A stretch of 51,175 bases of DNA, from positions 1 to 51,175 of the forward strand of contig QIAH01000345.1 in the NCBI GenBank assembly GCA_003225465.1, written 5' to 3'. A program made the translations under genes and the position numbers. Below, piece after piece: positions 14,007 through 45,050 of this stretch; positions within the stretch are counted from its first letter, which is position 1, and each line of letters begins with the position of its first letter. The DNA is from Acidobacteriota bacterium (GTDB lineage Bacteria; Acidobacteriota; Terriglobia; Terriglobales; Acidobacteriaceae). The notes below the pieces were generated by a model. It worked only from the letters and a program-made list of their open reading frames with translations, made no database searches and was not told the origin of the DNA.

Positions 14007-14015
14007 CCTCGGATT

Positions 14016-14681: not shown

Positions 14682-14849
14682 AACACACCTCACCCCTGGA
14701 TAGGATGCTTCTATTTTCGACCCGGATGCAGCGGAATGGAAGCGGGAAAATCACGGGTCGCGGATGAAGATTCGAGCGCCGGCCTGCCCGCGTTGACTTG
14801 TTTCCGGGCGCAGCCTACCATCAATTTAACCCGCACGAAATTCTTCTTC

Positions 14850-24634: not shown

Positions 24635-24966
24635 GCTTTCTTCTCCTGATCAGGTGACGAGGGCACAAAAATCCCTCCGAGGTTAGTGATTGGCACGCAT
24701 CGTGCCAGAAGTGTGGGTATGCATATGTGGGTGAAGTGTAAGGATATAGCTGGGAGCGGGCAAGGGCGAAGCGAGTTTTACAAGGGTCAAAAAACACGCA
24801 GCTGGGGTGGAAACCCGCAAGAGGGCGTGTTCCCGATTCGGTCCCGCGATTCTCAACGCAACTAAGTCCATGAAAATATGAATAGAAAGTGGCGTTGAAG
24901 GCGCTCGTTGCATTTGGAAGCCGGGATGCGCTTATCGGGTTCGAAGTTTTTCTCGGGAGACCCGCA
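24635..24966. other. Divergent promoter region between cytochrome c and hemA
   Basis: This 332-base stretch holds the palindromic sigma-54-like element at 24691-24707. A plus-strand frame is open from 24889 into hemA, but without a family-like N-terminus. No gene is seen. Confidence 0.5.
24691..24707. promoter_or_regulatory. Palindromic sigma-54-type promoter candidate, TGGCACG-N4-GTGCC(A)
   Basis: TGGCACGCATCGTGCCA reads TGGCACG, four bases, then GTGC on both strands. The GG and GC pairs are separated by 10 bases, as in -24/-12 promoters (consensus TGGCACG-N4-TTGC). On the minus strand this would start transcription about 45 bases before the cytochrome c gene. On the plus strand the leader to hemA would be about 250 bases. 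It could instead be only a repressor operator. Confidence 0.4.
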
Positions 24967-27245: not shown

Positions 27246-27300
27246 GCCTGACTTAACGTGTTGGCCTGACTTCCGTGTTGACCTGGCTTAACGTGTGTTG
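27246..27300. repeat. Three tandem units of an 18-base repeat reaching into a gene end
   Basis: Units: gcctgacttaacgtgttg (27246-27263), gcctgacttccgtgttg (27264-27280) and acctggcttaacgtgtgttg (27281-27300). The last unit contains the stop codon (TAA, 27288-27290) and the final codons of the sigma-54 activator, so the repeat has set the end of that protein. Confidence 0.7.
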
Positions 27301-28757: not shown

Positions 28758-28983
28758 TCCCTATAGCTTACTACGACTGTTTTCGGGGGAGTTTCGGCGT
28801 GATTGTATGGGAAACCGGGCGGGGATGCCTATAGTTGACAACCTATTATTCGGAGCGATGGAGGCGGAGAACGCAAAAAGCCTGACGGAGTCCAGCCAGC
28901 ATGGCAGAAGTCACCTGCTGAGCTTGGAACTCCGTGATCAGGCGAATGGCAACTTTCGCAACCAGCCGCGAACGAAGCCCTGG

Positions 28984-29508
28984 TTAACTATTCGATTCCT
29001 TAATGTCCTCATCCGCTTGCTTGGATGCTTTCTTAGCTTCCGTCTTGCTGTCAGAGGTTGGGCGCAGAGTCTGAATGGCTTTGCCGAGGCTCATCGACTT
29101 GCTTCCGGTGCCGGCCGGGCACGCCGTGCTCGATTTGAGCGCGGTGCCAGTCATATCGGCCTGGAGGCAGGAGAAACTGATGCCCAGATTCTTGCTGACG
29201 TGAGCCGCGGCGACGCACTGACCCAGGTTCTTGAAGCCGGTGCAAGCCTGCTGTGCGCTCATCCCGGTCAGGTGCTGAATTTTGCCGGCCAGTTGCGTAT
29301 TCCGGGTGAGGATATCGTTCATTGTCTGACCATGAGACGCGCTCATGTTATTCCGCGCATTCGCGGCATGGTCACTCGCACCGTGGTTCATGCTGGCGCC
29401 GCCACCCATCCCGCTCCCCATGTCTCCGGGATGTCCGTGCTGGGCCAGTGCCGGTGCACAGCAGACTGCGAGAGCCAGGGCGATTACAAAAATGTGAATG
29501 GATTTCAT
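28984..29508 (-). CDS. Small exported His/Met-rich protein of unknown function
   Basis: A 174-residue protein with a signal peptide (cleavage near ALAQ). The mature N-terminus is rich in His, Met and Gly (HGHPGDMGSGMGGG), a composition that could bind metal. A helical middle part follows (NTQLAGKIQHLTGMSAQQAC) with four Cys in all. The tail is KAIQTLRPTSDSK plus a charged end. I recognise no enzyme family. GGAGG lies well placed before ATG 29508. It is 46 bases downstream of the beta-barrel gene on the same strand and may share its message. Confidence 0.7.
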   Translation of the reverse strand: MKSIHIFVIALALAVCCAPALAQHGHPGDMGSGMGGGASMNHGASDHAANARNNMSASHGQTMNDILTRNTQLAGKIQHLTGMSAQQACTGFKNLGQCVAAAHVSKNLGISFSCLQADMTGTALKSSTACPAGTGSKSMSLGKAIQTLRPTSDSKTEAKKASKQADEDIKESNS

Positions 29509-29554
29509 TGGTTTTGCTCCTCCTTCGCGGATGAGATTTCTTTGAGGCTGCGTT

Positions 29555-30418
29555 CTACTGCACGTGCTTTCCATACAACTGCTTCAAATTGAAGCCGAGC
29601 GCAAATGAGACTGAATTCAATTCGTAGTGCATGCTCCGGGTAAAACCCAGCGTGAGATCAACCCCTCGCCAAGGGTTGGCGTCGACCCAGGTCGAAAAGC
29701 CGTCGTCCTTGGCGATGTCAGCGCTGCCGGTGGTCTGCTGGCCGCTTTCGAAGATCCGACCGTGCTGCCCGGAGGCGCCATGAGCCACCTGGCTGAAGAC
29801 CGTCTGCTGGCCGCTGGGAAGAATGTCGTAACCCGATGCGCCCACGCTGAAGAACTTCCAAACGTCGTAGGTCGCGCCGCCTTCAAAATGGGTGTTGAAC
29901 CCCAGCGTGGTGTAAGGCCGGACAAACAGACGTGTGCTCACGATAGTGTTAGCGATGCCCACATTGACGAAGGGTTTCAGGTCGGAGAACGAATGATCGA
30001 AGTGATTGGTCCAATCGAAAGTGCCGCGTCCCGTGCTCAGGCCCTTCTTGCTGTCGCCCACGGGGGCGAATCCGGTTAGCACGGAACCGAAGTTCACGAT
30101 GGGAAGCGCGTATCTCACATGCACATCGACGGAAGGATTGCCCAATCCGTTGGTGGACGTCGCCCCGGTGGAACTGGAAGGTCGAACAAAGTAGATGGGC
30201 ACGCCCGCGTCGACACCGAAGTGCGGCGTGAAGTCGTAGCCAACACTCGTGGTGAGCTCGTAGATCTGGCCTTCGCTGTTGGCACTACCGTCGAATTCAA
30301 CGTAAGAGGTGAAGCCGGTCGATGCCTCTGCGGCCGGCTTCGGGCCAGACTGCGCCATTGCACCGGCTGACAGGAGAACAACTAGAACGACCACCGCGAG
30401 GACAGAATGTCGCTTCAT
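29555..30418 (-). CDS. Outer-membrane beta-barrel protein
   Basis: A 287-residue protein with a signal peptide (AVVVLVVLLSAGAMAQ). The mature part is about 12 alternating beta-strands, for example YELTTSVGYDFTPHFGVDAG, DVHVRYALPIVNFG, VDLTLGFTRSM and VSFALGFNLKQLY. Its pattern resembles the transporter/meta-cleavage type barrels and OmpW-like small porins. No Phe-terminated last strand is seen. Function unknown. It lies between the histidine kinase and the response regulator, and its upstream region has GGTAACC-type boxes that may be operators. Confidence 0.75.
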   Translation of the reverse strand: MKRHSVLAVVVLVVLLSAGAMAQSGPKPAAEASTGFTSYVEFDGSANSEGQIYELTTSVGYDFTPHFGVDAGVPIYFVRPSSSTGATSTNGLGNPSVDVHVRYALPIVNFGSVLTGFAPVGDSKKGLSTGRGTFDWTNHFDHSFSDLKPFVNVGIANTIVSTRLFVRPYTTLGFNTHFEGGATYDVWKFFSVGASGYDILPSGQQTVFSQVAHGASGQHGRIFESGQQTTGSADIAKDDGFSTWVDANPWRGVDLTLGFTRSMHYELNSVSFALGFNLKQLYGKHVQ

Positions 30419-30471
30419 GAGTGTTGGAAACTCCGATGAAATTTTTGTGCTTGGGAACGCGTCGCTTGCAT

Positions 30472-30528
30472 ACCAGGATGGCCCCACACCACCTGGTAAC
30501 GCGTCAATCCTGGTTACCGCCGGTAACC
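30472..30528. promoter_or_regulatory. Cluster of CCTGGTAACC-like boxes
   Basis: Boxes are CCAGG (30473-30477), CCTGGTAAC (30492-30500), CCTGGTTACC (30509-30518) and CCGGTAACC (30520-30528). The last two form an inverted repeat (GGTTACC-GCC-GGTAACC). Further upstream at about 30549-30562 is a separate perfect palindrome, caacatgcatgttg. They precede the beta-barrel gene (start 30418). Likely operator sites, by pattern only. Confidence 0.45.
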
Positions 30529-30695
30529 GTCCATGGGCGGCATGCTTTCAACATGCATGTTGTGCTCCCGAGGACGAAGGGGCAAGTTACGTAAGGGAAA
30601 TGAGGTACTTAGGTTGGCGGGGAAGACCGCAAGAGCCCATTAATTAAGGAAGTTCTTGCACGGCCAAAGCAAGAATTGCATCACGGCGCACCTGC

Positions 30696-31820
30696 TCAAG
30701 AGACCGCAGCCTCGGCATCTTCGGCATGAACCTGTGAGTGATGGATGGGGAGGGTGATCAGGAATTCCGTGCCTCTGCCGAGTTCGCTTTCAACGTCGAT
30801 CCGGCCCCGATGGTCCTCGACGATGCGGCGGGCCAGCGACAGACCCAGCCCCGTGCCGTTGCCCTTGGTTGTGTAAAACGGGCGGAAGATGAAGGGAAGG
30901 TGCTCGGGCGAAATACCACGGCCACTATCGGTGACAGAGATCAGGGCTTTATCCTTTTTTGCGGCGACGACGACCCGGATGGTGCCAGCGCCTTCGATTG
31001 CCTGCACTGAGTTCAGCAGGAGGTTGAGGACAACCTGGTGCATCTGGTCGGAGTCGTGTTCGACATTGGGGAGCTGGGGATTTTTTTCGAGCTCGATCTT
31101 GATGGGTTTCGAGAGCACCTGCTGGCGCGCGAGCATGACCGCGTGCTCCACCGTAGTATTGAGATCACTGGCGCGAACATCAGGCGGGTGCGGACGCGCC
31201 GCTTGCAGCAGGTCAGTGAGAATGCGGTTGATCTGTGCAACCTCCAAACGCACATCTTTGATCACCGCGCGCGCGGGGCTTGTGGTGGGCAGGTCGCGGC
31301 CTACTATCTCGATGACACCGGCGATACCTGCGAGCGGATTGCGGATCTCATGTGCGAGCCCGGTGGCGAGCTCTCCCAGGGTGGCCAGGTGCTCCGCGCG
31401 CGACATCTGGGTGCGATGCAGGCGGTCGATCTCTTCGCGGCTCTCGCGAAGTTGCTGGACCATGTGATTGAAGTTGCGACCCAGGTCACCAATCTCGTCG
31501 TTTCGCTTGGCAAATTTGACGGAAACGTCCAAGTCTCCTTCGCCCACGCGCGCAATCTTGTCCTGCAGCTCGACCATAGGACGCTGGATGAGATAGGCCA
31601 GGGCGATCATCACCGCCGCACAGATAGCGACGGCGCCGCAACCGGCTACGATCAGCACCTGATGGCGCTCGGGATCCCGCAAGGAAACGGTGGCCATCAG
31701 GAAGAGCAAGAGGCCGTTCAGCAACACGAAGGCGACCGGGAGCACGGTCTTGACCTGCCAATTCACGCGTACCGACGGCATGCCTGCGTCTTCGCGGCGG
31801 AAGCTGACCGGTGATTGCAC
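30696..31820 (-). CDS. HAMP sensor histidine kinase (NtrB-like output)
   Basis: A 374-residue kinase. Two membrane helices at about 24-45 and 55-80 are linked by a very short loop, so there is no outer sensor domain. A HAMP domain follows, then HisKA with the phospho-accepting His in GLAHEIRNPLAG. The ATPase domain has N-box LLLNSVQAI, DSGRGISPEHLPFIF and GTGLGLSLARRIVE. It starts with GTG 31820, preceded by GAGGGGG. It lies 42 bases behind ccsA in the resB-ccsA operon. The NtrC-type regulator at 27288 is the likely partner by class and closeness. Confidence 0.92.
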   Translation of the reverse strand: MQSPVSFRREDAGMPSVRVNWQVKTVLPVAFVLLNGLLLFLMATVSLRDPERHQVLIVAGCGAVAICAAVMIALAYLIQRPMVELQDKIARVGEGDLDVSVKFAKRNDEIGDLGRNFNHMVQQLRESREEIDRLHRTQMSRAEHLATLGELATGLAHEIRNPLAGIAGVIEIVGRDLPTTSPARAVIKDVRLEVAQINRILTDLLQAARPHPPDVRASDLNTTVEHAVMLARQQVLSKPIKIELEKNPQLPNVEHDSDQMHQVVLNLLLNSVQAIEGAGTIRVVVAAKKDKALISVTDSGRGISPEHLPFIFRPFYTTKGNGTGLGLSLARRIVEDHRGRIDVESELGRGTEFLITLPIHHSQVHAEDAEAAVS

Positions 31821-31862: not shown

Positions 31863-33263
31863 TCATGCATAGGCATGGAGTCCGGGCAGCAAGTAAGTCA
31901 CGCCAAAGAACGTGAACATCACCACTACGAATCCAAGAATAGCGAAGTAAGCTGCGCGACGTCCGCGCCAACCGCGGGTGATTCGCATATGAAGGTAGCC
32001 GGCGTAAACCAGCCACGTAATGGCCGCCCACGTTTCTTTGGGATCCCAGCTCCAGTAAGAGCCCCAGGTGCGGTTTGCCCAATATGCACCGGCTGCAATC
32101 ATCAGGGTGAGCAATGGAAAAGCAATACAGATTGTTTTGTAGGTAATGCGGTCGAGAGCTTCGGCTGTGGGCAACAGGCGTTCGAGATCGGGCCGGCGCC
32201 ACAGCAAGAGAAGATATAGCAGAGAACTAAAGATTCCGCTTACCAGGCCGGAGAGAATGAAAGGGCTCGCCGCCAGGCTGGTGGCATAGAGCCCTTCCGC
32301 ATCGAGGGAGGGATACTGGCCGGCGCGAGCGCGCAGCAGGAACACGAGCAGCGCCACAATCTGCAGCAGGATGCTGACGAAGACCGCGCGGTTGGCGAGT
32401 GTAAACAGCGCCTCGTTCTTGCGCACGCGGCCCACGATATAGAGAGCGAACGGTGCAGCCACTACGAGCAGCACCAGCAGCATGAGCCATCCCAAGTCTG
32501 GGATAACCACGAACAGCCGGACGCCGCGCTGCAGAAACATTTCGGATTTTTCCTGCGCGTTCCAGCCGACTACGCTCAAGCCTCCCCAGTTTTCGAAGCG
32601 AGTCAGGATTCCCAGATAGACACCGATCCCGAAGAGGCTGGTGGTCGCGAGGAACGTTTCGTTCTGCATTTTGTCCTGGATCAGGAACATTAAAGCGAGG
32701 GCGAAGCTGAGGGCGCAGGCGGCATAGGCGAGCATGGCCAGGGTCACATGCACGTGCAGCCAGGTGGATTGAAGCGCGGGCACCAACGGATGAACATCCG
32801 TACGAAGCAATTGCATCAAGACGACGCCGACGATCGCCACCGGCATGGTGACGGTCCCAATTACCTTCACGCCGAATTTCTTTTCCGCGATGAGAGTCAG
32901 AACGGCAAGCGTCCAGACGAAGCTCAGGAGCATTTCGTAGATGCTGGCGAAGGGCGGGTGCCCCGCCTCATACCAGCGATGCGCGACCGCGCCGGTGTTG
33001 GCGGCGAGGCCGGCCCAGGTCGCGAGCGAGGCGAAGCGTACGTAGGAATCTGTGCCGGTTACACCAAATCCAAGGTAGAGAGCACCAGCCCCGGCGTAGA
33101 AGATCAACGCTGCATAGAGCAGGTTTGATTCGTTGAGCAAGTTGCCGCTCTTCACCACGTTCAGGAATGCCATGAACAGCAGGAACGCGATGCCCAGTCC
33201 AACCATCACGATGAGCGTGGTTCCGGTTGCCGCAGGCTGCTGTTCTACTCGTGCGCGCGCCAT
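31863..33263 (-). CDS. ccsA: Cytochrome c biogenesis protein CcsA (System II)
   Basis: A 466-residue polytopic protein. It carries the haem-handling WWD signature [18 protein letters not shown] near the C-terminus, with conserved His residues in flanking segments ([16 protein letters not shown]). With ResB it exports haem and ligates it to CxxCH motifs in the periplasm. GGAGGAG precedes the ATG by 5-6 bases. It follows resB by 28 bases and faces a divergent operon that encodes 31 canonical CxxCH sites. Confidence 0.94.
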
Positions 33264-33291: not shown

Positions 33292-34734
33292 TTATGCGAT
33301 GGAAGGAACCCGCGTGCGTGCGGGTACTTCCGCCTGTGTCTTCAGTTCCGCTTCGATTTTGCTGACCAGTTCGCGAAAACGTTCTTCAAATGCCTCCCGG
33401 TTGCGATTGGCCAGACCCCCGACCCAGAGTGTGTATTTGCCATTCGCTTCGCGAACCGGAACCGCCCAGAAACGCGTGTGTGCCACATAAAAGACGAAGG
33501 TCAGGCCGATCCCCATGCAAATTACGCCCGCCCACACCGCCCACTGTCCGGGTTCGTGAGAAACCTCGAGCCCCGTGAAGTAGCCCATTTTTAAATCGAC
33601 CGCCTCGAATTCATAAGGCGACTGGGCGTTTTCCGCAAAGCCTTCCAACGCGGGGAGCCAAAAGTTGACGTGCTTGCCACTTTTGCGCGAAGTAACAAGC
33701 AGGTGCGCGGCAGGATTCTGCACTGAGGTCGAGCGCGTATAGACCTGACCATCGCTCACCACATAATCAGGAATGAACTCTGCCAACTGGACCGTGGTGT
33801 CGGGATCGAGGGATGCGATCTCATTCAGTCCCAGGGCAAGATCCTTCTTCTCGCCCGGGCCGCTCGAGGCCCTGGCCGTCAGCAGCAGTTTCTCGAGCTT
33901 GCCGGTAGGTCCGTAACTCGCCTGGTAGAAACGAACGCCGCCGTACACCAGCGGATCGTTTACGACGATTTCCTTGCGCTGCAGGTCTTGGCCGTTGCGA
34001 ACGACTGCCAGTTGCGACCACCACTTCTTCGGTGTGCCGTCAGCATAGTTCTCCTGGCCGGCGCCGTCGCACCGAACCGCGAAGGGCAGAGACTTCTGTT
34101 TGCCGTCGCGAAGTTCAACCAGGCTGGACTGCTGACCCTGGGTGAGCTTCACAAAGCCGCGCCAGCCCCAGAGGGCGTCCACGATGCCGCCAAAGAAAAT
34201 AAGGAGAAGGCTGGCGTGCACGATGTACACGGCCATCTCCGAAATGCGATTGCGCTCGGCAAAGAGCGAGAAATGATTGCTCTGCACTACGCGTTCCGGC
34301 TTAAATCCCAATTCGTGCAGTGAGCGCTCGGCGGCCACCAGGCCCGTTTCCTCGTCAGCAATGGGGATCTGCTTCTGTATCGGGAGCGCTCTACGGAAGG
34401 TCTTGTCCGGGGACTTGTAGGGGCGGGCGTAGTAGCGCCACGCATTGGGGAAACGCTCGATGGAAGCGGCGATGATGCAGAGACTGACCAGGATCATTAA
34501 GGCCACGAACCACCAGGCGTGGAAAACGTCTGTGAGGCCGACCGCATCGAGAATTCGCAGCACCTGGGGCGAATAGGCGCGTTGCATTTCGTCCGGATCC
34601 GTAACTGGCCGCTGCAAAACGATCGTGCCCGCCGCGGACAGCACCACCACGGTGATCAACAGGACAACCCCAGTCTTAATCGAACTCAGAGCCTGCCAGA
34701 TCTTCCTTCGCAAACTGCGTATATGGACAGCCAT
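33292..34734 (-). CDS. resB: Cytochrome c biogenesis protein ResB/Ccs1 (System II)
   Basis: A 480-residue protein with four membrane helices: [53 protein letters not shown] and [21 protein letters not shown] large outer domain lies between the third and fourth. This is the standard ResB/Ccs1 layout; it holds apocytochrome and works with CcsA. The segment [11 protein letters not shown] and the later YQASYGPTG are typical. GAGGACGAT leads to ATG 34734. It is the first gene of the minus-strand maturation operon. Confidence 0.94.
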
Positions 34735-35251: not shown

Positions 35252-36727
35252 GTGTCGGTAGCAAGACAAAATCGGTGGCGGTTCGAAACGGTTCGCGATG
35301 GGGTGTTGCAAGTGCTTGTGGTGCTGTTCTTGGCTGCGCTTCCGGCGTTTGCGGCCACCCACCCTGTTCCTCTCGACAAGAACACAGATGCGGCAAAGTG
35401 TCTGGAATGTCATTCGGATAAGCAGCAAGGCAAAGCGATTCACTCGGCCATGGCCACAGGCTGCATGAGTTGCCACGAGATCCGGATCAACAAGGACGTT
35501 ACCCGCGTCAAGCTGATCACTGCAACGCCTGCGGCCCTGTGCCTCACCTGCCATGCCGACAAAAACGCTGCCGATCTCAAAGGTACAGTTCATAGCCCGG
35601 CGGTCCGCGATTGCCTGAAGTGCCATGATCCGCACTCGAGCGACAACAAGAACCAGTTGCTGAAGGCGAGTGCCGGTGGAGAGAAACAGAATCTCTGCCT
35701 CAGCTGTCACCAGATCGGGCTGAACGTTCCAGAAAAAGGCAGTCGTCACGCGGCGCTCGACATGGGATGCGAGACCTGCCATGTGACGCACAAAACCGGA
35801 GAAAAAGGGAAACCAGAATTCGATTTCCACCTGACCAAAGCGGCGCCGGCGCTTTGCCTCGATTGTCACGATGCCAAGGACGCGAGCTTGCAGAAGGCGC
35901 ACCGCAATCAGCCTTTCAGCACTGCCAATTGCCTGACTTGCCACGATCCCCATCAGTCGGCGGCGCCCAAGCTGATGGCGAAGTTCGTCCACCCGCCATT
36001 CGGAGAGAAGACCTGCGAAGTTTGCCACGAAGCGGCGAAGGACGGGAAGGTGGTCCTGACGCAGACTGACGTGAAGGCGCTTTGTGTCACCTGTCACGAC
36101 GATAAAGCGAAGCTGATCGAGACTGCCAAGGTACAACATCCGGGCGCTGCTGGGGATTGCACGGATTGCCACAATCCGCACGCCAGCAAAAGCCCCGGAC
36201 TGCCGAAGACGGATCCGGTAAGCATTTGCCTTGGTTGCCACACGGATGTGGCCGATCTCGAGAAGAAACCCGTTCACCACCAGCCCGCGTTTGGGCAAGG
36301 TTGTGCGGTCTGTCACGAGCCTCACGGGAGTGCCCGCGCGAAGCTGCTGCGGGCCGAAGGCAACGCGCTTTGCCTGGAGTGCCACGGCAAGGACACCGTG
36401 CCGCAGAGGCTGGAGGCTCAGCACCTGATCACGATATTCGACGGCAAGGTGCGGCTGCCGGAAGACTACTTCGACAAGAACAAAGCGTACGTGCTGCCCT
36501 TGCGCTACAACCTCGGCCATCCGGTAGCCCAGCATCCCGTGGCCAATGTGATGGATCCGACAAACATCCACAAGGTGAAGAACACACTCAGTTGTGTGCG
36601 CTGCCATCAGCCGCATGCCGGCGGCCAGCCCCGGCTGTTAGTGAAAGATCAGCAGAACAACATGGCTTTCTGCGACAACTGCCACCAGAACCGTCTGGAT
36701 ATGACACAAATTGTGGAGGCGAAGTAA
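35252..36727 (+). CDS. Exported 16-haem cytochrome c
   Basis: A 491-residue protein. The start is GTG 35252 (GGAGG ten bases before), giving a signal peptide (LQVLVVLFLAALPAFA). I count 16 CxxCH sites: CLECH, CMSCH, CLTCH, CLKCH, CLSCH, CETCH, CLDCH, CLTCH, CEVCH, CVTCH, CTDCH, CLGCH, CAVCH, CLECH, CVRCH and CDNCH. Many are followed by DPH, NPH or EPH, as in the doubled-CXXCH family. Haem density is about one per 30 residues, enough for a wire-like chain. It is the first gene of a seven-gene operon with two NHL proteins, two other cytochromes, an isomerase and a barrel. It could be periplasmic or cross or leave the outer membrane. Confidence 0.93.
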   Translation: MSVARQNRWRFETVRDGVLQVLVVLFLAALPAFAATHPVPLDKNTDAAKCLECHSDKQQGKAIHSAMATGCMSCHEIRINKDVTRVKLITATPAALCLTCHADKNAADLKGTVHSPAVRDCLKCHDPHSSDNKNQLLKASAGGEKQNLCLSCHQIGLNVPEKGSRHAALDMGCETCHVTHKTGEKGKPEFDFHLTKAAPALCLDCHDAKDASLQKAHRNQPFSTANCLTCHDPHQSAAPKLMAKFVHPPFGEKTCEVCHEAAKDGKVVLTQTDVKALCVTCHDDKAKLIETAKVQHPGAAGDCTDCHNPHASKSPGLPKTDPVSICLGCHTDVADLEKKPVHHQPAFGQGCAVCHEPHGSARAKLLRAEGNALCLECHGKDTVPQRLEAQHLITIFDGKVRLPEDYFDKNKAYVLPLRYNLGHPVAQHPVANVMDPTNIHKVKNTLSCVRCHQPHAGGQPRLLVKDQQNNMAFCDNCHQNRLDMTQIVEAK

Positions 36728-36729
36728 CC

Positions 36730-38019
36730 ATGTTTCCCGTTTATCGAACTTCCCAGCACGTTTGCAGAACGGTTACGGCGCTGATCGCGATTCTGGTGCT
36801 GTCGGTGCTTTCGCCGGTATCGCTGCACGCAAAGAAGAAGAAGCCCGTTCCGGCCAAGACGACAAAAGAAGAGCTGAAGGTGCAGGTCGACACCAGCAAG
36901 CTGGTGTGGCCGGAACCGCCAAGTCTTCCGCGCATTCGTTACACGAGTTATTTCGCGGGAATGAAGCTCGAGTACACGACCGAGGACAAGAAGCCCAAGC
37001 AGAGCTGGATGGATCGCCTGGCGGGTGGACAAACCCAAGACGAAAAACTCAGCAGCAAAAAGTTTCCATATCAGATGCTTGGACCCTATGGCATGGCTGT
37101 TGATTCAAAGAACCGGCTGTATGTGGCCGACCAGAAGGTGGGGGCGGTGTTCGTGTTCAACACCGAGACCCGGGACACGGAGTTGATCCGCAACGGCTTC
37201 GAAGCACACTTCGCCATGATCAACGCCATTGCCGTGGACGACGACGATCGCGTGTTCATCTCCGATGGGAAGCTGGCCAAGGTCCTGGTGTTCGATGCTA
37301 ATCACAAGATTGCCGGCCAGATCAACGAAGGCCTGGTGGATCCACTCGGTCTGGCGATCGACACGGAGCGCCGTCTGCTGTACGTGGTGGATACCAAGCA
37401 GGACGTAGTGTTCGTGTACGACGCCGACAGCCTGAAGCCGCTGCGCAAAATCGGCAAACCGGGCAAAAACCATACCCTGACGGGCCCGGGAGAGTTTTCC
37501 CTGCCCACCAATATTGCACTCGACCAGGATGGCAACGTGTACGTGACCGATTCACTGAACTTCCGGGTCGAGATTTTCGATGCCGAAGGAAACTTCCTGA
37601 GCCAGTTCGGTCAGCACTGCGACGCCATCGGCTGCTTCGAGCGGCCGAAGGGGATCGCGGTGGACAGCGACGGGCACATCTGGGTGGTGGACAGCAATCT
37701 TGCGCTGGTCGAGATTTTCAATCGCGATGGCGAACTGCTCGCCTATATAGGCGGGCCAGGGCGCAGCCTGGGCCGGTTCAATGCCCCAATGGGGATCGCG
37801 ATCGATAAGAACAATCGGGTGTTCGTCTCCGAGCAGTATCCCTGGGGACGGGTCCAGCAATTCCGTTACATCACGGATGCCGAATCAGCCACGATGAAAG
37901 CCGACCGCGAGAAGGCAGGCGTCGGAAAGCAGCAAGACGCGCAGAAAGACAAAAGTCAGGGCCAGGGGAATCCGAAAGACACCTCGCGGCTGAGTTCGCC
38001 GGCGCCGCAGGCGCAGTAG
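36730..38019 (+). CDS. Exported NHL-repeat beta-propeller protein (first copy)
   Basis: A 429-residue protein with a signal peptide (ALIAILVLSVLSPVSLHA) and a basic mature start (KKKKP). The main part is a six-bladed NHL propeller, with repeats such as GPYGMAVDSKNRLYVADQ, DPLGLAIDTERRLLYVVD, LPTNIALDQDGNVYVTDS, RPKGIAVDSDGHIWVVDS and APMGIAIDKNNRVFVSEQ. The tail is Lys/Gln-rich and probably disordered. NHL propellers serve as binding scaffolds. It starts 2 bases after the 16-haem gene, with GGAGG ten bases before, so it likely works with that cytochrome. Confidence 0.9.
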   Translation: MFPVYRTSQHVCRTVTALIAILVLSVLSPVSLHAKKKKPVPAKTTKEELKVQVDTSKLVWPEPPSLPRIRYTSYFAGMKLEYTTEDKKPKQSWMDRLAGGQTQDEKLSSKKFPYQMLGPYGMAVDSKNRLYVADQKVGAVFVFNTETRDTELIRNGFEAHFAMINAIAVDDDDRVFISDGKLAKVLVFDANHKIAGQINEGLVDPLGLAIDTERRLLYVVDTKQDVVFVYDADSLKPLRKIGKPGKNHTLTGPGEFSLPTNIALDQDGNVYVTDSLNFRVEIFDAEGNFLSQFGQHCDAIGCFERPKGIAVDSDGHIWVVDSNLALVEIFNRDGELLAYIGGPGRSLGRFNAPMGIAIDKNNRVFVSEQYPWGRVQQFRYITDAESATMKADREKAGVGKQQDAQKDKSQGQGNPKDTSRLSSPAPQAQ

Positions 38020-38163
38020 AGCAAAGTTCTTGGCGCCCTCCGTTTTGGACGCCGGAAAGGGACAGGACGCTGCCGGTAGCGCCCTTACCTGAAAGCAGCA
38101 ATTGTAGAAAGCAGCAAGGCAACAGATATGAAGTGTTCGAACACATCAGGAGGTCTTATCTAT

Positions 38164-39033
38164 ATGAAGAAAGCGCTCTTTGTTCTGCTCGCGATCTTCG
38201 CCGTGGCAGGTTTCGCAATGGCGCAGATCACAACGACGAGCACCGACGTTCTCGGTGCGCACCTCAACTACGGCCGCGGCTGCGCGGCGTGCCATGCTCC
38301 GCACAGCGGCGCCTATGGCAACGGCGCTGCCAAGACCGCTTATGCCAATGCCGGCGTCCATGCCCTCTGGGGCCAGGACCTTGGTTCGCTGGTTGGGCAA
38401 TCGTTGCAGTTTGGCGATGCTAGCGGCGGATGGACCGAGACACTGCCGGGTCTGGACGCGACCACGCCCGACACCAACATCACCGAGTGCCTGAGCTGCC
38501 ACGACGGCAACCTCGCGAAAGGCGCCATGATGAAGAACGCGGTGTTTGAGACACTGCCGAGCTCATACGGGAAGTACAACTCCATTCCAACCCTGCTGGG
38601 CGCCGATGGCAGTTCGACCGGCAACTACCTGAACGATCACCCCGTAGGGCTGAACGCCAAGGTAAGCTGCGGCGGAACCTATGACTGGGATTGCACCATT
38701 GTGAACGGTGCGATCACCTATCCCGCTGGAACCAAAATGTACCAGTTCGTTCAGAACTATGGTTTCTTTGTCAGGACCAGCGCTTACAACGGAAGCCCGG
38801 TCGTGACTTGCACTTCGTGCCATCACCAGCACGTGATGAACGTGTCGGTGGTTAAGACCGGAGCGAGCTCTGGTCTACCGGCGGGCAGCTACGCCACGAT
38901 GTTCTTCGTGCGTGGTCCTTACAACCCGGGCAGCACGACGCCGAACTCCAACCAGACGGCACAGTTCTGCCGCCAGTGTCATGGTGGCGAAGCCAACGAG
39001 ATGAACGGCAGCACCGCTGGAACGACGTTCTAA
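38164..39033 (+). CDS. Exported 4-haem cytochrome c
   Basis: A 289-residue protein with a clear signal peptide (MKKALFVLLAIFAVAGFAMAQ) and AGGAGGT nine bases before the ATG. Its four haem sites are CAACH, CLSCH, CTSCH and CRQCH. The first is in CAACHAPHSG and the second in CLSCHDGN. These two blocks, separated by an LWGQDL segment, match the N-terminal blocks of the 12-site cytochrome at 43086 (CTYCHAPHSG, LWNQTL, CLSCHDGT). So the two genes are related, one long and one short. Long inserts between the haem sites make this a low-density protein. Confidence 0.92.
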   Translation: MKKALFVLLAIFAVAGFAMAQITTTSTDVLGAHLNYGRGCAACHAPHSGAYGNGAAKTAYANAGVHALWGQDLGSLVGQSLQFGDASGGWTETLPGLDATTPDTNITECLSCHDGNLAKGAMMKNAVFETLPSSYGKYNSIPTLLGADGSSTGNYLNDHPVGLNAKVSCGGTYDWDCTIVNGAITYPAGTKMYQFVQNYGFFVRTSAYNGSPVVTCTSCHHQHVMNVSVVKTGASSGLPAGSYATMFFVRGPYNPGSTTPNSNQTAQFCRQCHGGEANEMNGSTAGTTF

Positions 39034-39048
39034 TTACCTCAACTCGGA

Positions 39049-39080
39049 AGGGGAGAGAGCTGATCTCTCCCCTCATTTTA
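39049..39080 (+). terminator. Hairpin with T-rich tail between 4-haem cytochrome and isomerase
   Basis: The stem aggggagag (39049-39057) pairs with ctctcccct (39065-39073), loop 7, followed by CATTTTA. It may be a partial terminator that lowers expression of the distal half of the operon, or an mRNA-processing/stabilising stem. Confidence 0.6.
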
Positions 39081-39101
39081 GAAGTTGGAAGGAACGTAGC
39101 T

Positions 39102-40115
39102 ATGAAATCCGCCCTCCTGATCGGTACAGTGCTCCTGGTGAGCGTCGCAACGTTTGCCCAGGTGGCGTCGCACGCACCGACGGCAGCAGTCAGCGCAGCG
39201 CCGGTATCAATCCAGTCCACGGTACAGCCGGTTGCGCGGGTGAACGGTGCAGTTTTGACAGATCGTGATCTGCAACGTGAAATCTTCACGATATTTCCGT
39301 ACGCGCGCCAGCATGGCGGCACGGTGCCCAAGGAACTCGAGCCCGAGATCCGCAAAGGCGCACTGCAGATGATCATCTTCGAAGAGTTGGTGTACCAGGA
39401 AGCGCAACGCCGGAAGATGACGATTCCTTCTGCGCGCATGAGCCACGCGGAAGCTGACTTCCGCAAGCAGTTTGTGACCGCGGAGGAGTACAAGAATTTT
39501 CTGGAAGTCGAGTTCAAGGGATCGCCCCAAGCCATGCGGGAGAAGATTCGCCGCTCTCTCCTGATCGAGCAACTTCTGAAGCAGGAAGTAGACGGCAAAT
39601 CGACGGTTTCGATGGCGGAAGCGAAGGCTTATTACGACAAGAATCCCAGGATGTTCGAATACGCAGAAACTTTCTCGATTCAAACCATTTCGTTTGTGCC
39701 GCCCGAGAAGGCCACAGCCAGCCAGGTGCAGGAAGCCCGCAAGCGGGCGGAAGAGACCTTGCCTAAGGCGAAAGCCACCAAGACTTACGAAGAGTTTGGA
39801 TTGCTGGCTGAAAAAGTATCGGAAGACGACTACCGCGTCATGATGGGCGATCACAAGCCTCTGGCGCGCAATCAACTGGCGCCGGTGGTTGTGCAGGCAC
39901 TCTTGAATCTCCAGCCCGGTCAAGTGAGCGACGTCCTTCAGGTTGAAAACATCTGCACCATCGTCCGGCTGAACAAACACGTCCCCGGCGGCAAGAAGAA
40001 GTTCGAAGAAGTCAAAGGGCAGTTAATCCAGCGGTTGGAGAAAACCAAGACGAACCAGATCCGCGCCAGTCTAGATAAGAAACTGAAACAGAAAGCCAAG
40101 ATCGAAGTGCTGTGA
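39102..40115 (+). CDS. Exported PpiC/SurA-like peptidyl-prolyl isomerase
   Basis: A 337-residue protein with a signal peptide (LLIGTVLLVSVATFAQ). The N-terminal SurA-like chaperone region starts VARVNGAVLTDRDLQREI and continues with FEELVYQEAQRRKM. A parvulin-like domain is at about 195-300 (QTISFVPPEKAT, LNLQPGQVSDVLQVENICTIVRL). SurA-type proteins escort outer-membrane barrels through the periplasm. The next gene encodes such a barrel and overlaps or abuts this one, so the pair is probably dedicated. AAGGAA lies before the ATG. Confidence 0.9.
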   Translation: MKSALLIGTVLLVSVATFAQVASHAPTAAVSAAPVSIQSTVQPVARVNGAVLTDRDLQREIFTIFPYARQHGGTVPKELEPEIRKGALQMIIFEELVYQEAQRRKMTIPSARMSHAEADFRKQFVTAEEYKNFLEVEFKGSPQAMREKIRRSLLIEQLLKQEVDGKSTVSMAEAKAYYDKNPRMFEYAETFSIQTISFVPPEKATASQVQEARKRAEETLPKAKATKTYEEFGLLAEKVSEDDYRVMMGDHKPLARNQLAPVVVQALLNLQPGQVSDVLQVENICTIVRLNKHVPGGKKKFEEVKGQLIQRLEKTKTNQIRASLDKKLKQKAKIEVL

Positions 40116-40135
40116 ATACAGCCGGAAGCTGGTAC

Positions 40136-42007
40136 ATGATGGCAAGTCAATTTCGATATCGAGGATGCAGCGTTTTTGGACTGCTGCTCTTGCTGGCCCT
40201 CTCCGCGGCAGCTCAGGTGCAAGTGGGTGACAATCTCAGCCTGAATCTGAACGGCCTCATGTCCGCTGGGTACAATGGCGTTTATGGAAATCAGATCAAC
40301 TCAAGCCACGGCCTAAGCGTCGGTGGAAACGGAACTTTATCAGGCTCTTATTACGATCCTAATTTTCTCACTTTCAATTTGTCGCCCTACTACAACCAGT
40401 CGCGTCAGAATTCCGATTCGCGCTCCCTCTTCAACGATGGTGGTTTCGATTTCACCAGCAATCTCTTCGGCGGCAGTCACTTTCCGGGGTCTGTTGGATT
40501 TTCGAAATCATGGAACAGCGAGGGGATTCTCAATCTGCCGGGGCTCCAAAACTACACCACTCGCAGCAGCGGTCAAGGTTTCAACATTGGATGGGGCGCT
40601 TTTGTGCCGGATTGGCCGAGCCTGACCGCCACGTTCAGTGATGGTCACGGCGACTATTCGGTCCCCGGAACGGATCTGAATGGGAATAATACCTATCACA
40701 ACCTGGCCTTGCGATCCGGATATATGATTGCCGGCTTCAATCTGAGCGCGGGTTACAACATCGGCAATTCCGAATCGAATATTCCGGTGGTGTTTGGGCC
40801 CCAGACGGTGGAGCATGTTAACTCAGATAATAACTCGTTCACGTTCAGCGCCTCGCATCTGCTGCCGATGCACGGCTCGTTTGGATCTTCGTTCAGCCGT
40901 TCATATATCGATTCCAACTATCTCGGTTCCGGCGACCACGGAACCGTCAACACGCTGAATGCGAACGCCGGCGTTAATCCGACCCAAAAACTGAATTTCT
41001 CAGCCGGTATGTCCTATACCGACAGCCTCACGGGCTCGTTGTATCAATCGCTGCTGCCTGGCGCGAGCGGGAGTGCAGTATCTCCCGTCAACGGCGTGTA
41101 CCAGTCGAATATGAGTTCCAATGCGCTTTCGATCAGCGGGATTACTAATTACGTGGTAGGTCACGGCGTGCAGGTGGAAGCTGACGCGCAACGTCGGCAG
41201 CAGACCTACCTGGGAACCAGTTACGGAGCGAATACCTTCGGTGGTGGCCTTACCTACTCTACTGGGGTGTTGGGTGGGTTCTTGAGCGCCTCGGCGAGCG
41301 TGAACGACAGTAATGGCGATTACACCAATGGGAATTCCATCGGCTTCTCGACGAATCTGGCATTCAGTCGAGCCATTCAGCAGTGGAATGTGAGTGGTGA
41401 TTTCACCTACGCGCAAAACGTGCAAGCGTACCTGATCACCTATACGAATTCCTTCTACGTCTATACGGGCAATGTCCGGCGCCGTTTGTTAAACGGACGC
41501 ATGGTGTGGAGCGCGAGTGCTGCGGGTTCGCGAAGCGCGTTGACCGCACAGCCTAACACGGGGAACAGCAGCCAGAGCTACTCCACGAGCTTGGGATTAC
41601 GTCACTACACTCTCGCCGGCAGTTATGCGAAATCCAGTGGCTTCGGGTTGTTAGGCCTGGGTGGATTGAACCCGCTGCCTCCCGGTCTTCCCCCGAGTGT
41701 GATACCTCCCGAGTGGATCCTTCTGTATGGAGGTCGCAGCTACTCTTTCTCGCTGGGCGCAAGTCCGGTTCGCAGACTCTCCCTGGGTGCGAGTTTCTCA
41801 AAGGCTCGAAGCAATACCTCGACGGGCGGGGTGGCTTCCTGGAACGATAACGAGCAAGTCAATGCTAACCTCAATTACCAGCTCAGAAAGCTGACATTCT
41901 CAGCCGGATACGGACGCCTTATCCAAGGTTTCAGCGCGTCCGGACTGCCTGCAGCCAACGTGAATTCGTTTTTCGTAGGCTTCTCGCGTTCGTTCAATTT
42001 CTTTTAA
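40136..42007 (+). CDS. Large outer-membrane beta-barrel, candidate porin of a cytochrome conduit
   Basis: A 623-residue protein with a signal peptide (FGLLLLLALSAAAQ) and long runs of alternating strands rich in Ser, Asn, Gly and aromatics, such as FNLSAGYNIGNSE, KLNFSAGMSYTDS and LGGFLSASASVNDSNGDY. The last strand ends SFFVGFSRSFNFF, a C-terminal Phe as in BAM substrates. By length it could form a barrel of 20 or more strands. I see no TonB box or plug domain. A GTG at 40112 overlaps the previous stop and could be the start, adding 8 residues. Similar large barrels hold cytochromes in MtrB- and OmbB-type complexes; sequence similarity to those cannot be judged by eye. Confidence 0.85.
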   Translation: MMASQFRYRGCSVFGLLLLLALSAAAQVQVGDNLSLNLNGLMSAGYNGVYGNQINSSHGLSVGGNGTLSGSYYDPNFLTFNLSPYYNQSRQNSDSRSLFNDGGFDFTSNLFGGSHFPGSVGFSKSWNSEGILNLPGLQNYTTRSSGQGFNIGWGAFVPDWPSLTATFSDGHGDYSVPGTDLNGNNTYHNLALRSGYMIAGFNLSAGYNIGNSESNIPVVFGPQTVEHVNSDNNSFTFSASHLLPMHGSFGSSFSRSYIDSNYLGSGDHGTVNTLNANAGVNPTQKLNFSAGMSYTDSLTGSLYQSLLPGASGSAVSPVNGVYQSNMSSNALSISGITNYVVGHGVQVEADAQRRQQTYLGTSYGANTFGGGLTYSTGVLGGFLSASASVNDSNGDYTNGNSIGFSTNLAFSRAIQQWNVSGDFTYAQNVQAYLITYTNSFYVYTGNVRRRLLNGRMVWSASAAGSRSALTAQPNTGNSSQSYSTSLGLRHYTLAGSYAKSSGFGLLGLGGLNPLPPGLPPSVIPPEWILLYGGRSYSFSLGASPVRRLSLGASFSKARSNTSTGGVASWNDNEQVNANLNYQLRKLTFSAGYGRLIQGFSASGLPAANVNSFFVGFSRSFNFF

Positions 42008-42009
42008 AG

Positions 42010-43089
42010 ATGGAGCTTGTATTGCGTAAGAGTCTGCAAATCGTAACCTTGGTGCTGATCGTAGTTCTGGCGGCGGCATTCAAGCCCACCAAGCCAGTTG
42101 CCAGAACGCAGGCTCCGCCGGACCTGCAACTCGAAGGTGGCCGCAAGCTGACCTACGAACGAAGCTTCAGTTCAGAGAACGAAGTGAAGCCCAAACGCGG
42201 TTTCTGGTCGCGGCTGGTAGATATCGTCGCGGGCGAACCGGACTTTCACAGCATGATCCGGCCCTACAGCGTGGTGACTGACTCCCGCGGCCGGGTGATT
42301 GTGAGTGACCCGGGCGCGATTGGCGTTCATGTTTTTGATTTTGCGGGCAAGAAGTACAAATTCCTTTCGCGCGCGGACGACACAAAAAATCCCATGCTCG
42401 CGCCCCAGTGTGTGGCCGTCGACGCGAACGACAGCATTTATGTGACGGATTCGGAAGCCGGCAAGGTTTTCGTGTTCGACGCCAACGGAAAGTACCAGCG
42501 CGTCATTGGCAGCTTGAAAGGCGGCGAAGGCTACTTCAAGCGGCCCACCGGGATCGCGGTGGACTCAAAGGCGCAGCGGATCTACGTCACCGACACTCTG
42601 CGGGACAAGATTTTCATGCTCGACATGGAGGGATCGGTCCTGCAGACGTTCGGGAAGAACGGGCGGGGAGAGGGCGAATTCAACTATCCCACCGAACTGC
42701 GCCTGGACGGTGACAACCTGATCGTGGTTGATGCCATGAATTTTCGCGTGCAGGTGCTCGACCGCTCGGGACAGTTCCGATTCGCGATTGGTGGGATTGG
42801 CGACAGCAGCGGCACGATGTTCCGGCCAAAAGGCGTCGGAGTCGATTCCGAAGGCGACCTGTACGTAGTGGACGGACTGTGGGGCATGGTGCAAGTCTTC
42901 AATCGCCAGGGCGACCTGCTTTACTACTTCGGAGGGAAGGGCACGGAAGCGGGCGAGTTCCAGTTGCCCACCGGGCTCTCGATCGATTCGCAGGACCGGA
43001 TCTTTGTGGTCGATTCGTTTAACCGCCGAATCCAGATTTTTCATTATTACGGTACGGGCAAGTGGTCTCGCGCGGGAGGAAGCCAGTGA
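42010..43089 (+). CDS. Exported NHL-repeat beta-propeller protein (second copy)
   Basis: A 359-residue protein with an N-terminal hydrophobic signal or anchor (LQIVTLVLIVVLAAAF). A six-bladed NHL propeller follows: APQCVAVDANDSIYVTDS, RPTGIAVDSKAQRIYVTD, YPTELRLDGDNLIVVDAM, RPKGVGVDSEGDLYVVDG and LPTGLSIDSQDRIFVVDS. It is related to the propeller at 36730 (RGFWSRLVDIVAG corresponds to KQSWMDRLAGG before the first blade). So each of the large cytochromes in this operon has its own propeller next to it. The ATG is 2 bases after the barrel stop, and its end overlaps the next gene. Confidence 0.9.
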   Translation: MELVLRKSLQIVTLVLIVVLAAAFKPTKPVARTQAPPDLQLEGGRKLTYERSFSSENEVKPKRGFWSRLVDIVAGEPDFHSMIRPYSVVTDSRGRVIVSDPGAIGVHVFDFAGKKYKFLSRADDTKNPMLAPQCVAVDANDSIYVTDSEAGKVFVFDANGKYQRVIGSLKGGEGYFKRPTGIAVDSKAQRIYVTDTLRDKIFMLDMEGSVLQTFGKNGRGEGEFNYPTELRLDGDNLIVVDAMNFRVQVLDRSGQFRFAIGGIGDSSGTMFRPKGVGVDSEGDLYVVDGLWGMVQVFNRQGDLLYYFGGKGTEAGEFQLPTGLSIDSQDRIFVVDSFNRRIQIFHYYGTGKWSRAGGSQ

Positions 43090-45050
43090 AATTAAAACTC
43101 CTGTTCGCCTGCGTCGTGTTGGCCAGCGCAACATTATTCGCGCAGATTACAGGGGACGTGATCGGCATGCACGATCTCTCTCCCGGCAGCACGTCTCCGA
43201 TCGTGGGCGCACGCCCCGGCTCCTGTACTTATTGCCATGCCCCACATTCAGGCCTCGCTTCCGGCAAGGCGCTGTGGAACCAAACGCTGACTCGCCAGGT
43301 CTATAACCTGTACACCAGCACCACCTATAATCAGGTGGGAGAACAGCCGACGCTGGGGGCTGATAGCAATTTGTGTCTTAGCTGCCATGACGGCACGGTT
43401 GCGGTGGGTCAGACGCTAGTTTCAGGCCAGGTGGCGACGATGGGCAAGATGTATGCCACCGATGTATTCGCGAATAATCTTCAATCCTCGCATCCCATCA
43501 GTGTGCTGACTCCTTTGAAAGACGGGCCCAGCCTGGTGGCCACGCTGGCGGCGAATGGCCAGACTGCGGATCCAACCGGCGCGATCAAACTGGTGAATGG
43601 CAACATCGAGTGCACGTCCTGCCACAACCCGCACGTGGAGGCTACCGATCCCAGCGCCAAAAACTTTCTTGCTAAGAATAGCGTGAACGGTGCGATGTGC
43701 CTGGCCTGTCACGATCCGAATCGCGTGGCGCAGAATCAGACCAATCCGCTGGCGGGATGGACCACGAGTATTCACGCGACCAACGGCGCGACTGTGCAGA
43801 ACCTGCCTTATACGACCCTGAGTACGAACGCGTGCTTTTCTTGTCACACGGATCACAATGCCGCCGGGGCGAGTTGGCTGCTGCGCGGAGCAGGCGACCA
43901 AGTGTGCTTGAACTGCCACGCCGGGGGAATGAGCGGAGCCGTGACCGTGGCGAGTGCAAATCCGTTCATGCGCACTATTGCGACGCCTCCTGGCCTGGTT
44001 GGTCCCGTAAAGGCGATGTCCAGTCTGAATGTCGCATCCGAGTACGCCAAGGTGGGGCATCCGGTATCGACCGGGTCGACCCAACCCAAAGTGCAAGCTT
44101 CGGCGCACAACCGGAAGGCAGTCACTGCCGCTCCCAATGTCGCCGGTCAAACTGGATGTACCGATTGCCACGAACCACATGCGATAGGGTCAGGCGGAAG
44201 CGCCCTCGTCGCCGCGCCGCTCGTGCGAGCGTCGCAGAAGGAAGTGTGGGGCGTCAGTGAAACCGATGGCGTGACGATCGTTCGGCCGGCGCAATACCAA
44301 TTCCAGACTTGCCTGCGCTGCCACGGCGCCAATGCGAAGAGTTTTGCCAGAGCCTCCAAATATGGATATGAGCCGGTGCGGATGGCTTCGGCGTCTGAGC
44401 GTCAGAATGTCATTCCACAGTTCGGGGCAACTGCCGGTTCCAGCCACCCGGTGTTTCATCCGCGGACAAGTTCGTTGCCACAGCCGAGTCTGCTTCCGAA
44501 CATGCTGAACCTGGACGGCGTCACCCAGGGTCGGGCGATGGGCACCCAGATCTATTGCACGGATTGTCACAACAGCGACGACAATCGCGAATTCGGAGGC
44601 ACGGGACCGACGGGGCCGCACGGATCGAAGTGGGGACACATTCTGGAGCGGCGTTATGAATTGAGCCAGGCGATGTCGCCCGGGCAGCCGATCACCAACT
44701 TGTTTCCGAATCCTGATCTCAGCGCGAATGGTCCTTATGCGATGTGCGCGAAGTGCCACAACCTTTCCAATGTGCTGCAGAATGCGAGTTTTGCGAAGCA
44801 TGCCCAGCACATCAAGGCGGGGTTCAGTTGCTCGACCTGCCACACCGGGCACGGAGCTGGGAATAGCAGCGCCAATCCGACAGGCCAGAGACTGATCAGC
44901 TTCGATGCGAACGTCGTGGCTCCGAATGCAGGAGTCCCGATCTCCTACAACCAGGGACCGAACACCTGCACGCTGACCTGTCACAATGCCGCGCATAATC
45001 CGAATGGAACTGTGACCCTTCTCGGGACTGGGAGCGTGGCGAGGAAGTGA
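43086..45050 (+). CDS. Exported multihaem cytochrome c, 11 CxxCH plus one CX3CH
   Basis: A 654-residue protein. GTG 43086 is used: it overlaps the previous stop (GTGA) and has GGAGG 6 bases before. The signal peptide is LKLLFACVVLASATLFAQ. Canonical sites are CTYCH, CLSCH, CTSCH, CLACH, CFSCH, CLNCH, CTDCH, CLRCH, CTDCH, CAKCH and CSTCH. Near the C-terminus CTLTCH (44967-44984) has three residues between the cysteines and may bind a twelfth haem. Several additional His residues (NPH, APH, EPH, TGH) can be distal ligands. Large Ser/Thr/Asn-rich stretches between haems suggest an exposed, perhaps cell-surface protein. It is the last gene of the operon. Confidence 0.92.
   Translation: MKLKLLFACVVLASATLFAQITGDVIGMHDLSPGSTSPIVGARPGSCTYCHAPHSGLASGKALWNQTLTRQVYNLYTSTTYNQVGEQPTLGADSNLCLSCHDGTVAVGQTLVSGQVATMGKMYATDVFANNLQSSHPISVLTPLKDGPSLVATLAANGQTADPTGAIKLVNGNIECTSCHNPHVEATDPSAKNFLAKNSVNGAMCLACHDPNRVAQNQTNPLAGWTTSIHATNGATVQNLPYTTLSTNACFSCHTDHNAAGASWLLRGAGDQVCLNCHAGGMSGAVTVASANPFMRTIATPPGLVGPVKAMSSLNVASEYAKVGHPVSTGSTQPKVQASAHNRKAVTAAPNVAGQTGCTDCHEPHAIGSGGSALVAAPLVRASQKEVWGVSETDGVTIVRPAQYQFQTCLRCHGANAKSFARASKYGYEPVRMASASERQNVIPQFGATAGSSHPVFHPRTSSLPQPSLLPNMLNLDGVTQGRAMGTQIYCTDCHNSDDNREFGGTGPTGPHGSKWGHILERRYELSQAMSPGQPITNLFPNPDLSANGPYAMCAKCHNLSNVLQNASFAKHAQHIKAGFSCSTCHTGHGAGNSSANPTGQRLISFDANVVAPNAGVPISYNQGPNTCTLTCHNAAHNPNGTVTLLGTGSVARK

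Follow-up and report, generated by a model that had tools for sequence, protein, structure and literature searches.

A seven-gene cluster in the window, the 51,175-nucleotide stretch of acidobacterial DNA analysed here, encodes what we read, with about even confidence, as an extracellular electron-transfer machine whose NHL propellers would act as exported, partner-specific envelope adaptors and not as electron carriers. This reading rests on gene content, homologies, conserved gene pairing, the separate lineages of the propellers, co-divergence, gene fusions and lipoboxes in relatives. Both propellers lie inside the cluster, whose order is 16-haem cytochrome, NHL-A, 4-haem cytochrome, peptidyl-prolyl isomerase (PPIase), beta-barrel, NHL-B and 12-haem cytochrome. 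The features are:

31863-33263, - strand: CcsA/CcmF-like cytochrome c maturation gene, divergent from the cluster (Pfam Cytochrom_C_asm, 8e-49)
33292-34734, - strand: ResB cytochrome c maturation gene, divergent from the cluster (Pfam ResB, 3e-80)
35252-36727, + strand: 16-haem cytochrome (c16), MtrA/DmsE-like, 16 CxxCH motifs, predicted periplasmic side of the conduit
36730-38019, + strand: NHL-A, six-bladed-type propeller with signal peptide (Pfam NHL, 9e-25; 30-row alignment A2)
38164-39033, + strand: 4-haem cytochrome (c4), OmcE-like, putative filament subunit (profile A3 against OmcE)
39102-40115, + strand: SurA/EpsD-like PPIase (Pfam Rotamase_2, 7e-16; SurA_N_3, 4e-10)
40136-42007, + strand: outer-membrane beta-barrel, MtrB-like by fold (AF2 model)
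42010-43089, + strand: NHL-B, six-bladed propeller with signal peptide (Pfam NHL, 1.2e-26; AF2; Foldseek)
43086-45050, + strand: 12-site cytochrome (c12), an N-terminal OmcE-like 4-haem domain and an 8-haem C-terminal part (profile A5; haem sites)
43086-43718, + strand: OmcE-like domain of c12, haems 1-4 (profile A5 against OmcE 7tfs; phmmer)

The original prediction had placed one NHL gene 2 bases past the 16-haem gene and another overlapping the 12-site cytochrome, and both placements were borne out: the c16 ORF ends at 36727 and the NHL-A ATG lies at 36730; NHL-B ends at 43089 and c12 begins with a GTG at 43086, a 4-base overlap that becomes 28 bases if the longest c12 ORF is taken. Across the whole window, multiple CxxCH motifs occur in the 16-, 4- and 12-haem genes only. 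The seven-gene cluster is kept in approximately 20 genomes of its own family.

The c16 protein is an MtrA-like cytochrome (profile A6 against 6r2q_A, E 1.3e-30); its match to the DmsE-family decahaem profile reached an E-value of 9e-49, yet fell below the cut-off. The barrel protein had no Pfam match. Its AF2 model (pLDDT 80.5) has approximately 28 long strands and found MtrB as its best PDB match (6r2q_B; E 4e-10, TM 0.50, 11% identity), a likeness at the level of fold only, and at that level the protein is a large MtrB-type outer-membrane barrel. Submitted to the PDB as a single sequence, c4 returned no convincing relative; OmcE was found by the family profile only (A3 against 7tfs, E 4.3e-11, and against 9yuq, E 6.1e-13). 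With four CxxCH motifs and exactly four other invariant histidines, c4 agrees with the OmcE filament in homology, haem number and distal histidines, the correspondence of histidines being taken from the alignment. We regard c4 as a putative OmcE-type filament subunit, its polymerisation being suggested by the OmcE-like homology, which is no proof.

In c12 we counted 11 CxxCH sites and one CxxxCH site (CTLTCH). All 29 homologues keep the cysteines and the histidine of the CxxxCH site unchanged, so the haem count of 12 is correct. The N-terminus of c12 matches OmcE as a complete domain (A5 positions 5-211 against 7tfs residues 6-231, E 6e-33), and OmcE was matched by phmmer in 28 of 28 distant c12 homologues. 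The complete OmcE-like domain in a 12-haem protein, as recognised by profile comparison, is newly seen here, and its completeness makes c12 a candidate for the base, or else the cap, of an OmcE-type filament.

Both propellers belong to NHL family PF01436 (E-values listed above; Pfam cut-off 20 bits) and carry export signals of the same kind. The fold model is that of NHL-B (AF2, pLDDT 89.8), whose nearest folds by Foldseek were TRIM/Thin NHL domains, headed by the Thin NHL (1e-25). Neither lineage of propellers conserves a Cys, His or Met, so nothing points to ligation of haem or metal. The pre-blade likeness of the two proteins noted earlier (KQSWMDRLAGG and RGFWSRLVDIVAG) is real. As a marker of two modules it was discarded, since the element also occurs in both propeller lineages of other phyla and in stand-alone paralogues, and is therefore a trait of the NHL family. 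In the NHL tree, the A and B labels needed 4 changes as compared with 23.7 in shuffles, and by this measure NHL-A and NHL-B are largely separate, position-locked lineages. Of the 21 NHL proteins encoded at the OmcE loci of Geobacter-family and other Desulfobacterota-side genomes, 17 have a lipobox, as do 25 of 34 from Planctomycetota; acidobacterial propellers are mostly without one.

Gene pairing was conserved well beyond the window. Of 81 informative loci from several phyla, 79 have an NHL gene as the immediate upstream neighbour of the 12-haem gene, far above chance, with 4 bases again the commonest overlap; so do 9 of 10 Planctomycetota loci when the search was begun from NHL-B. Two NHL genes within 9 kb were found at 50 of 54 loci. 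NHL genes of four loci (L067, L069, L099 and L119), masked by overlapping long ORFs in the automatic ORF choice, were counted after inspection. The cluster persists without NHL-B at L049 and, among the 81, at L098 and L125. The 16-haem/NHL-A pair is kept in the family even where the cluster has split into a 4-haem, PPIase, barrel, NHL-B and 12-haem block and a 16-haem, NHL-A block. Beyond the family, NHL-A usually adjoins the 4-haem gene, and a 5- to 7-haem gene often occupies the place of the 16-haem one. Loss of the gene pairs in relatives, which would have counted against the original prediction, was not seen: NHL-B/12-haem is kept across phyla and 16-haem/NHL-A within the family. Two NHL-multihaem fusion ORFs also exist; at L108, an NHL domain and a cytochrome part with 8 haems are joined in one ORF, roughly where NHL-A would lie. 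The L108 fusion, used as a query, found no further NHL-cytochrome fusions in 343 Planctomycetota genomes, a first look too narrow to establish absence.

To quantify co-divergence we used partial correlations of distances, which lessen but do not abolish the effects of shared history and recombination blocks among operon genes, and computed them for two sets, one of 34 loci from the family and one of 28 spanning phyla. NHL-A correlated with c4 in both sets (0.60 [0.39-0.74] in the family; 0.49 [0.29-0.66] across phyla), as well as with the barrel (0.26 and 0.53, respectively). NHL-B correlated with the N-terminal part of c12 in the family (0.41 [0.27-0.54]) and with its C-terminal part across phyla (0.34 [0.18-0.53]); against whole c12 in the family set, the value was non-significant (0.16 [-0.08,0.35]). 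The partial correlation between NHL-A and NHL-B was approximately 0, and NHL-A showed no co-divergence with the 16-haem protein (0.16 [-0.03,0.32]). These values suggest a link of NHL-A with the 4-haem protein and the barrel, and of NHL-B with the 12-haem protein. The proposal of two cytochrome/propeller modules thus survives in part: both pairs are conserved and NHL-B co-diverges with its 12-haem neighbour, but the co-divergence of NHL-A is with c4 and the barrel. We accordingly set aside 16-haem/NHL-A as an evolutionary unit, even though the two genes are adjacent in the family.

Each propeller might instead be a permanent structural subunit with its large neighbour (c16/NHL-A and c12/NHL-B), putatively with one pair on each side of the outer membrane. 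Such an arrangement would fit the persistence of both pairs under cluster rearrangement, the near-universal NHL-B/12-haem pairing and the L108 fusion, but we consider it unlikely given the missing co-divergence of NHL-A with the 16-haem protein, the usual place of NHL-A beside the 4-haem gene outside the family, and the frequent replacement of the 16-haem gene there. Less probable still is a reading in which the propellers have only the regulon in common with the cluster and serve instead as SGL/ScyF-like enzymes or as binders of some ligand or substrate, for instance iron mineral, flavin or polysaccharide. SGL and ScyF-type profiles did match, the latter under the curated cut-off, and mineral binding by NHL proteins was suggested in one paper (PMC12016550); however, the propellers have no conserved metal-binding residues, and the cytochrome fusions and cluster-specific co-divergence better match a partner role. 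We likewise doubt that the genes adjoin only through block inheritance of the operon, with the propellers never contacting the cytochromes directly: every cluster gene does correlate with the others to some degree, and operons often collect the genes of one pathway whose products do not touch, but the pairing survives rearrangements and spans phyla with 4-base overlaps, the partial correlations with specific partners recur in both locus sets, even for non-adjacent genes (NHL-A/barrel), and NHL-cytochrome fusions exist.

For the electron-transfer machine with propeller adaptors, we infer physical contacts, localisation, an assembly order, filament formation by c4 and a base or cap role for c12. 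The 16-haem cytochrome, seated in the large barrel, would form an MtrAB-like conduit, as homology and the barrel model suggest. The 4-haem protein would build an OmcE-type filament, which the 12-haem protein may join to the conduit through its OmcE-like N-terminal domain. At the barrel, NHL-A could bind c4, the filament protein, and aid its export or polymerisation, and NHL-B could bind the 12-haem protein and place or hold it. A loose analogy would be BamB and SurA, which serve barrels: the propellers might likewise act together with the PPIase. More specifically, and only tentatively, we propose that an OmcE-type nanowire has the 12-haem protein as its base or cap. The OmcE-like domain of c12 would there stand in for a subunit of the filament, and the 8-haem part would wire the filament to the outer-membrane conduit, with NHL-B loading or clamping c12 and NHL-A feeding in 4-haem subunits.

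According to a 2025 review, the secretion and anchoring of cytochrome nanowires are still speculative (PMC12307469). The cluster supplies concrete candidates: an attachment protein with a built-in filament domain and two propellers, one evolutionarily tied to the filament protein and the other to the attachment protein. NHL, a recurring unexplained gene neighbour, becomes a testable assembly factor, and if the base or cap reading is true, a nanowire attachment and assembly system is conserved in many phyla.

NHL genes beside such cytochromes are already known from Uet, the SEEP-SRB operon and OmcE-like loci. The earlier remark that no NHL role in electron conduits was known is right in that their role is unproven, but NHL or propeller genes in cytochrome clusters had previously been reported. 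The undecahaem electron transfer complex (Uet) of Tenderiales and some Gallionella resembles the cluster in its listed gene content (PMC10734462), with an undecahaem and an extracellular tetrahaem cytochrome, a PPIase, a beta-barrel porin and two NHL proteins. Its three trihaem periplasmic cytochromes (UetDEG) are absent from the window, where the 16-haem MtrA-like protein takes their place. The SEEP-SRB1/Desulfuromonadales operon (PMC5539420), named OetABI elsewhere (PMC10553843), has a six-bladed propeller, a 16-haem cytochrome and a PPIase among its four core genes. It also has a 26-haem cytochrome, of which the window holds none, whereas a 12-haem protein with an OmcE domain, present here, is undescribed for that operon. 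In G. sulfurreducens, the osc (omcS companion) operon, as summarised in PMC13194489, likewise pairs a cytochrome filament with folding and secretion proteins of its own, but its filament is the hexahaem OmcS.

The MtrCAB conduit (6r2q) shares an MtrA-like cytochrome and a large MtrB-like barrel with the cluster. MtrA has 10 haems, as compared with 16 here. To our knowledge, MtrCAB is without NHL, PPIase or OmcE-like parts.

All 14 loci retrieved around OmcE homologues (L149-L162) have an NHL gene next to the homologue. They come from Geobacter-family and other Desulfobacterota-side genomes, relatives of up to 63% identity other than G. sulfurreducens itself. The Geobacter-family OmcE locus (structure 7tfs) resembles the cluster in its MtrA-like multihaem genes and in the NHL propeller directly beside OmcE; in one genome of that family, a Cytochrom_C_asm gene also precedes the locus. 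It differs in having no 12-haem gene and one or two NHL genes, and at L151 no PPIase was found among the Pfam-scanned neighbours. A protein of approximately 750 amino acids is also encoded at the Geobacter-family OmcE locus.

All genes of the original prediction, two NHL propellers each adjoining a large cytochrome, were confirmed at their positions, and the complete unit comprises seven genes, all on the + strand:

35252-36727, +, 16-haem cytochrome (cluster gene 1)
36730-38019, +, NHL-A propeller (cluster gene 2)
38164-39033, +, 4-haem cytochrome (cluster gene 3)
39102-40115, +, SurA/EpsD-like PPIase (cluster gene 4)
40136-42007, +, beta-barrel (cluster gene 5)
42010-43089, +, NHL-B propeller (cluster gene 6)
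43086-45050, +, 12-site (12-haem) cytochrome (cluster gene 7)

Cytochrome c maturation genes (ResB and CcsA/CcmF-like) lie just upstream on the opposite strand. Near them, a sigma-54-dependent response regulator and a HAMP/HisKA histidine kinase (27288-31820, -) could control either the maturation genes or the cluster. Glutamyl-tRNA reductase, the first step of haem synthesis, is encoded ~9 kb upstream of the cluster (24889-26262, +).

In profile searches, the 16-haem protein matched MtrA (6r2q_A; E 1.3e-30). The beta-barrel had no Pfam match; its AlphaFold2 model (pLDDT 80.5) contains about 28 long strands, and its nearest structure was MtrB (E 4e-10, TM 0.50). The 4-haem profile matched the OmcE filament subunit 7tfs (E 4e-11) and 9yuq (E 6e-13), and the protein has exactly four invariant His outside its CxxCH sites. 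NHL-B was modelled as a six-bladed propeller (pLDDT 89.8) resembling TRIM/Thin NHL domains. By sequence, the 12-haem protein joins an N-terminal OmcE-like domain to an 8-haem C-terminal part, because the first 211 positions of its profile cover the whole length of OmcE (E 6e-33) and OmcE as query recovers this N-terminal part in 28/28 distant homologues. The remaining matches of the profile were 9yuq (1e-25) and far weaker ones (3e-6 or worse). The twelfth haem site is a CxxxCH motif, and 29 homologues all retain its Cys and His.

Relatives of NHL-B were found in 32/120 related genomes, and most of the closer ones share the seven-gene order. In some named genomes and three fetched loci (L020, L028, L036), the cluster is split into a 4-haem, PPIase, barrel, NHL-B and 12-haem block and a 16-haem/NHL-A block, leaving both cytochrome/NHL pairs intact. 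Between these blocks, on the opposite strand, is a second 4-haem OmcE-like gene (L020:12814-13671, L028:10396-11256, L036:10916-11761). In a more distantly related variant, a 7-haem gene replaces the 16-haem one and the PPIase is missing; in an acidobacterial variant (L038:4294-6150) without a recognised 16-haem gene, a 23-haem cytochrome adjoins the 12-haem gene.

Scanning GTDB genomes with the 12-haem profile gave 564 relatives, and we examined the best 80 loci, which came from Acidobacteriota, Planctomycetota, Verrucomicrobiota, Bacteroidota, Pseudomonadota, Myxococcota and others. An NHL gene lay directly upstream on the same strand for 79/81 12-haem genes away from a contig edge (75 automatically, 4 upon inspection), a figure that holds for the sampled loci only, since these are the closest of the 564. 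The commonest overlap in these 80 loci was 4 bases, and two NHLs occurred within 9 kb in 50/54. Conversely, searching Planctomycetota with NHL-B, the 12-haem gene came next in 9/10 matches. The exceptions to pairing were L098 and L125 and, within the own family, L049, where a cluster copy without NHL-B (12482-16383) has its barrel ending at 14311 and its 12-haem gene starting at about 14374; another copy in that genome has NHL-B. At L104 and L114, a second multihaem run (up to 16-22 CxxCH) and a further NHL gene lie downstream of the 12-haem gene. On the OmcE side, an NHL adjoined the OmcE homologue in 14/14 fetched loci (Geobacter family and other Desulfobacterota-side genomes), one of which, L158, belongs to the 12-haem cluster type and carries NHLs of its own. 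In two ORFs, the NHL domain is fused to haem sites (L108, 8 sites; L098, 11 sites), and the L108 fusion occupies the expected place of NHL-A and its cytochrome neighbour.

We labelled the NHLs of a quick 70-row tree by position, as directly preceding the 12-haem gene or lying at another place in the cluster. These labels required 4 changes, compared with 23.7 in shuffles, and three rows against the pattern (L080, L083, L104) were extra NHL copies picked automatically. Since neither label forms a single clade and several deep branches are weak, we describe NHL-A and NHL-B as, on this tree, largely separate lineages. A similar pre-blade element is also present in NHL paralogues that stand alone (L044-L047, L050, L052, L032:15327-16580); except for L032, they have no cytochrome neighbours within the fetched stretch.

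We then correlated tree distances, controlling each correlation for the remaining cluster genes, in 34 loci of the own family and 28 loci across phyla (brackets, 5-95% bootstrap over loci); as pairwise distances are not independent, these values are indications. NHL-A co-diverged with the 4-haem protein (family, 0.60 [0.39-0.74]; across phyla, 0.49 [0.29-0.66]) and the barrel (0.26 [0.07-0.47]; 0.53 [0.33-0.67]). It did not co-diverge with the 16-haem protein (0.16 [-0.03,0.32]), with which it had been proposed to form a module, or with NHL-B. For NHL-B, correlations were found with the 12-haem N-terminal part (family, 0.41 [0.27-0.54]), the C-terminal part (across phyla, 0.34 [0.18-0.53]) and the PPIase (family, 0.36).

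That NHL or propeller genes accompany multihaem cytochromes is already known from reports on Uet (PMC10734462), a SEEP-SRB1 operon (PMC5539420), Desulfovibrio ferrophilus (PMC9769857), Dethiobacter, where NHL/TPR proteins were suggested as assembly aids (PMC10376724), and Geoalkalibacter (PMC12016550); part of these associations include a PPIase. For the osc operon, roles in folding (OscH) and secretion (OscE/F/G) have been proposed (PMC13194489). Within our incomplete literature coverage, neither the 12-haem protein's OmcE-like domain, nor the existence of two position-locked propeller lineages, nor the assignment of partners to them had been stated before; we claim no priority.

Our best reading is that both propellers would be envelope adaptors. 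NHL-A would act at the barrel on behalf of the 4-haem filament protein; NHL-B would serve the 12-haem protein, a possible link between filament and conduit through its OmcE-like domain. We infer contact of the propellers with their partners, as well as localisation and polymerisation. Alignments of each lineage contained no conserved Cys, His or Met, which counts against a redox role. By a simple pattern, which makes the counts rough, lipoboxes were present in 17/21 NHLs of the Geobacter-side loci, 25/34 in Planctomycetota and 7/8 in Verrucomicrobiota, and in only 4/60 named acidobacterial copies.
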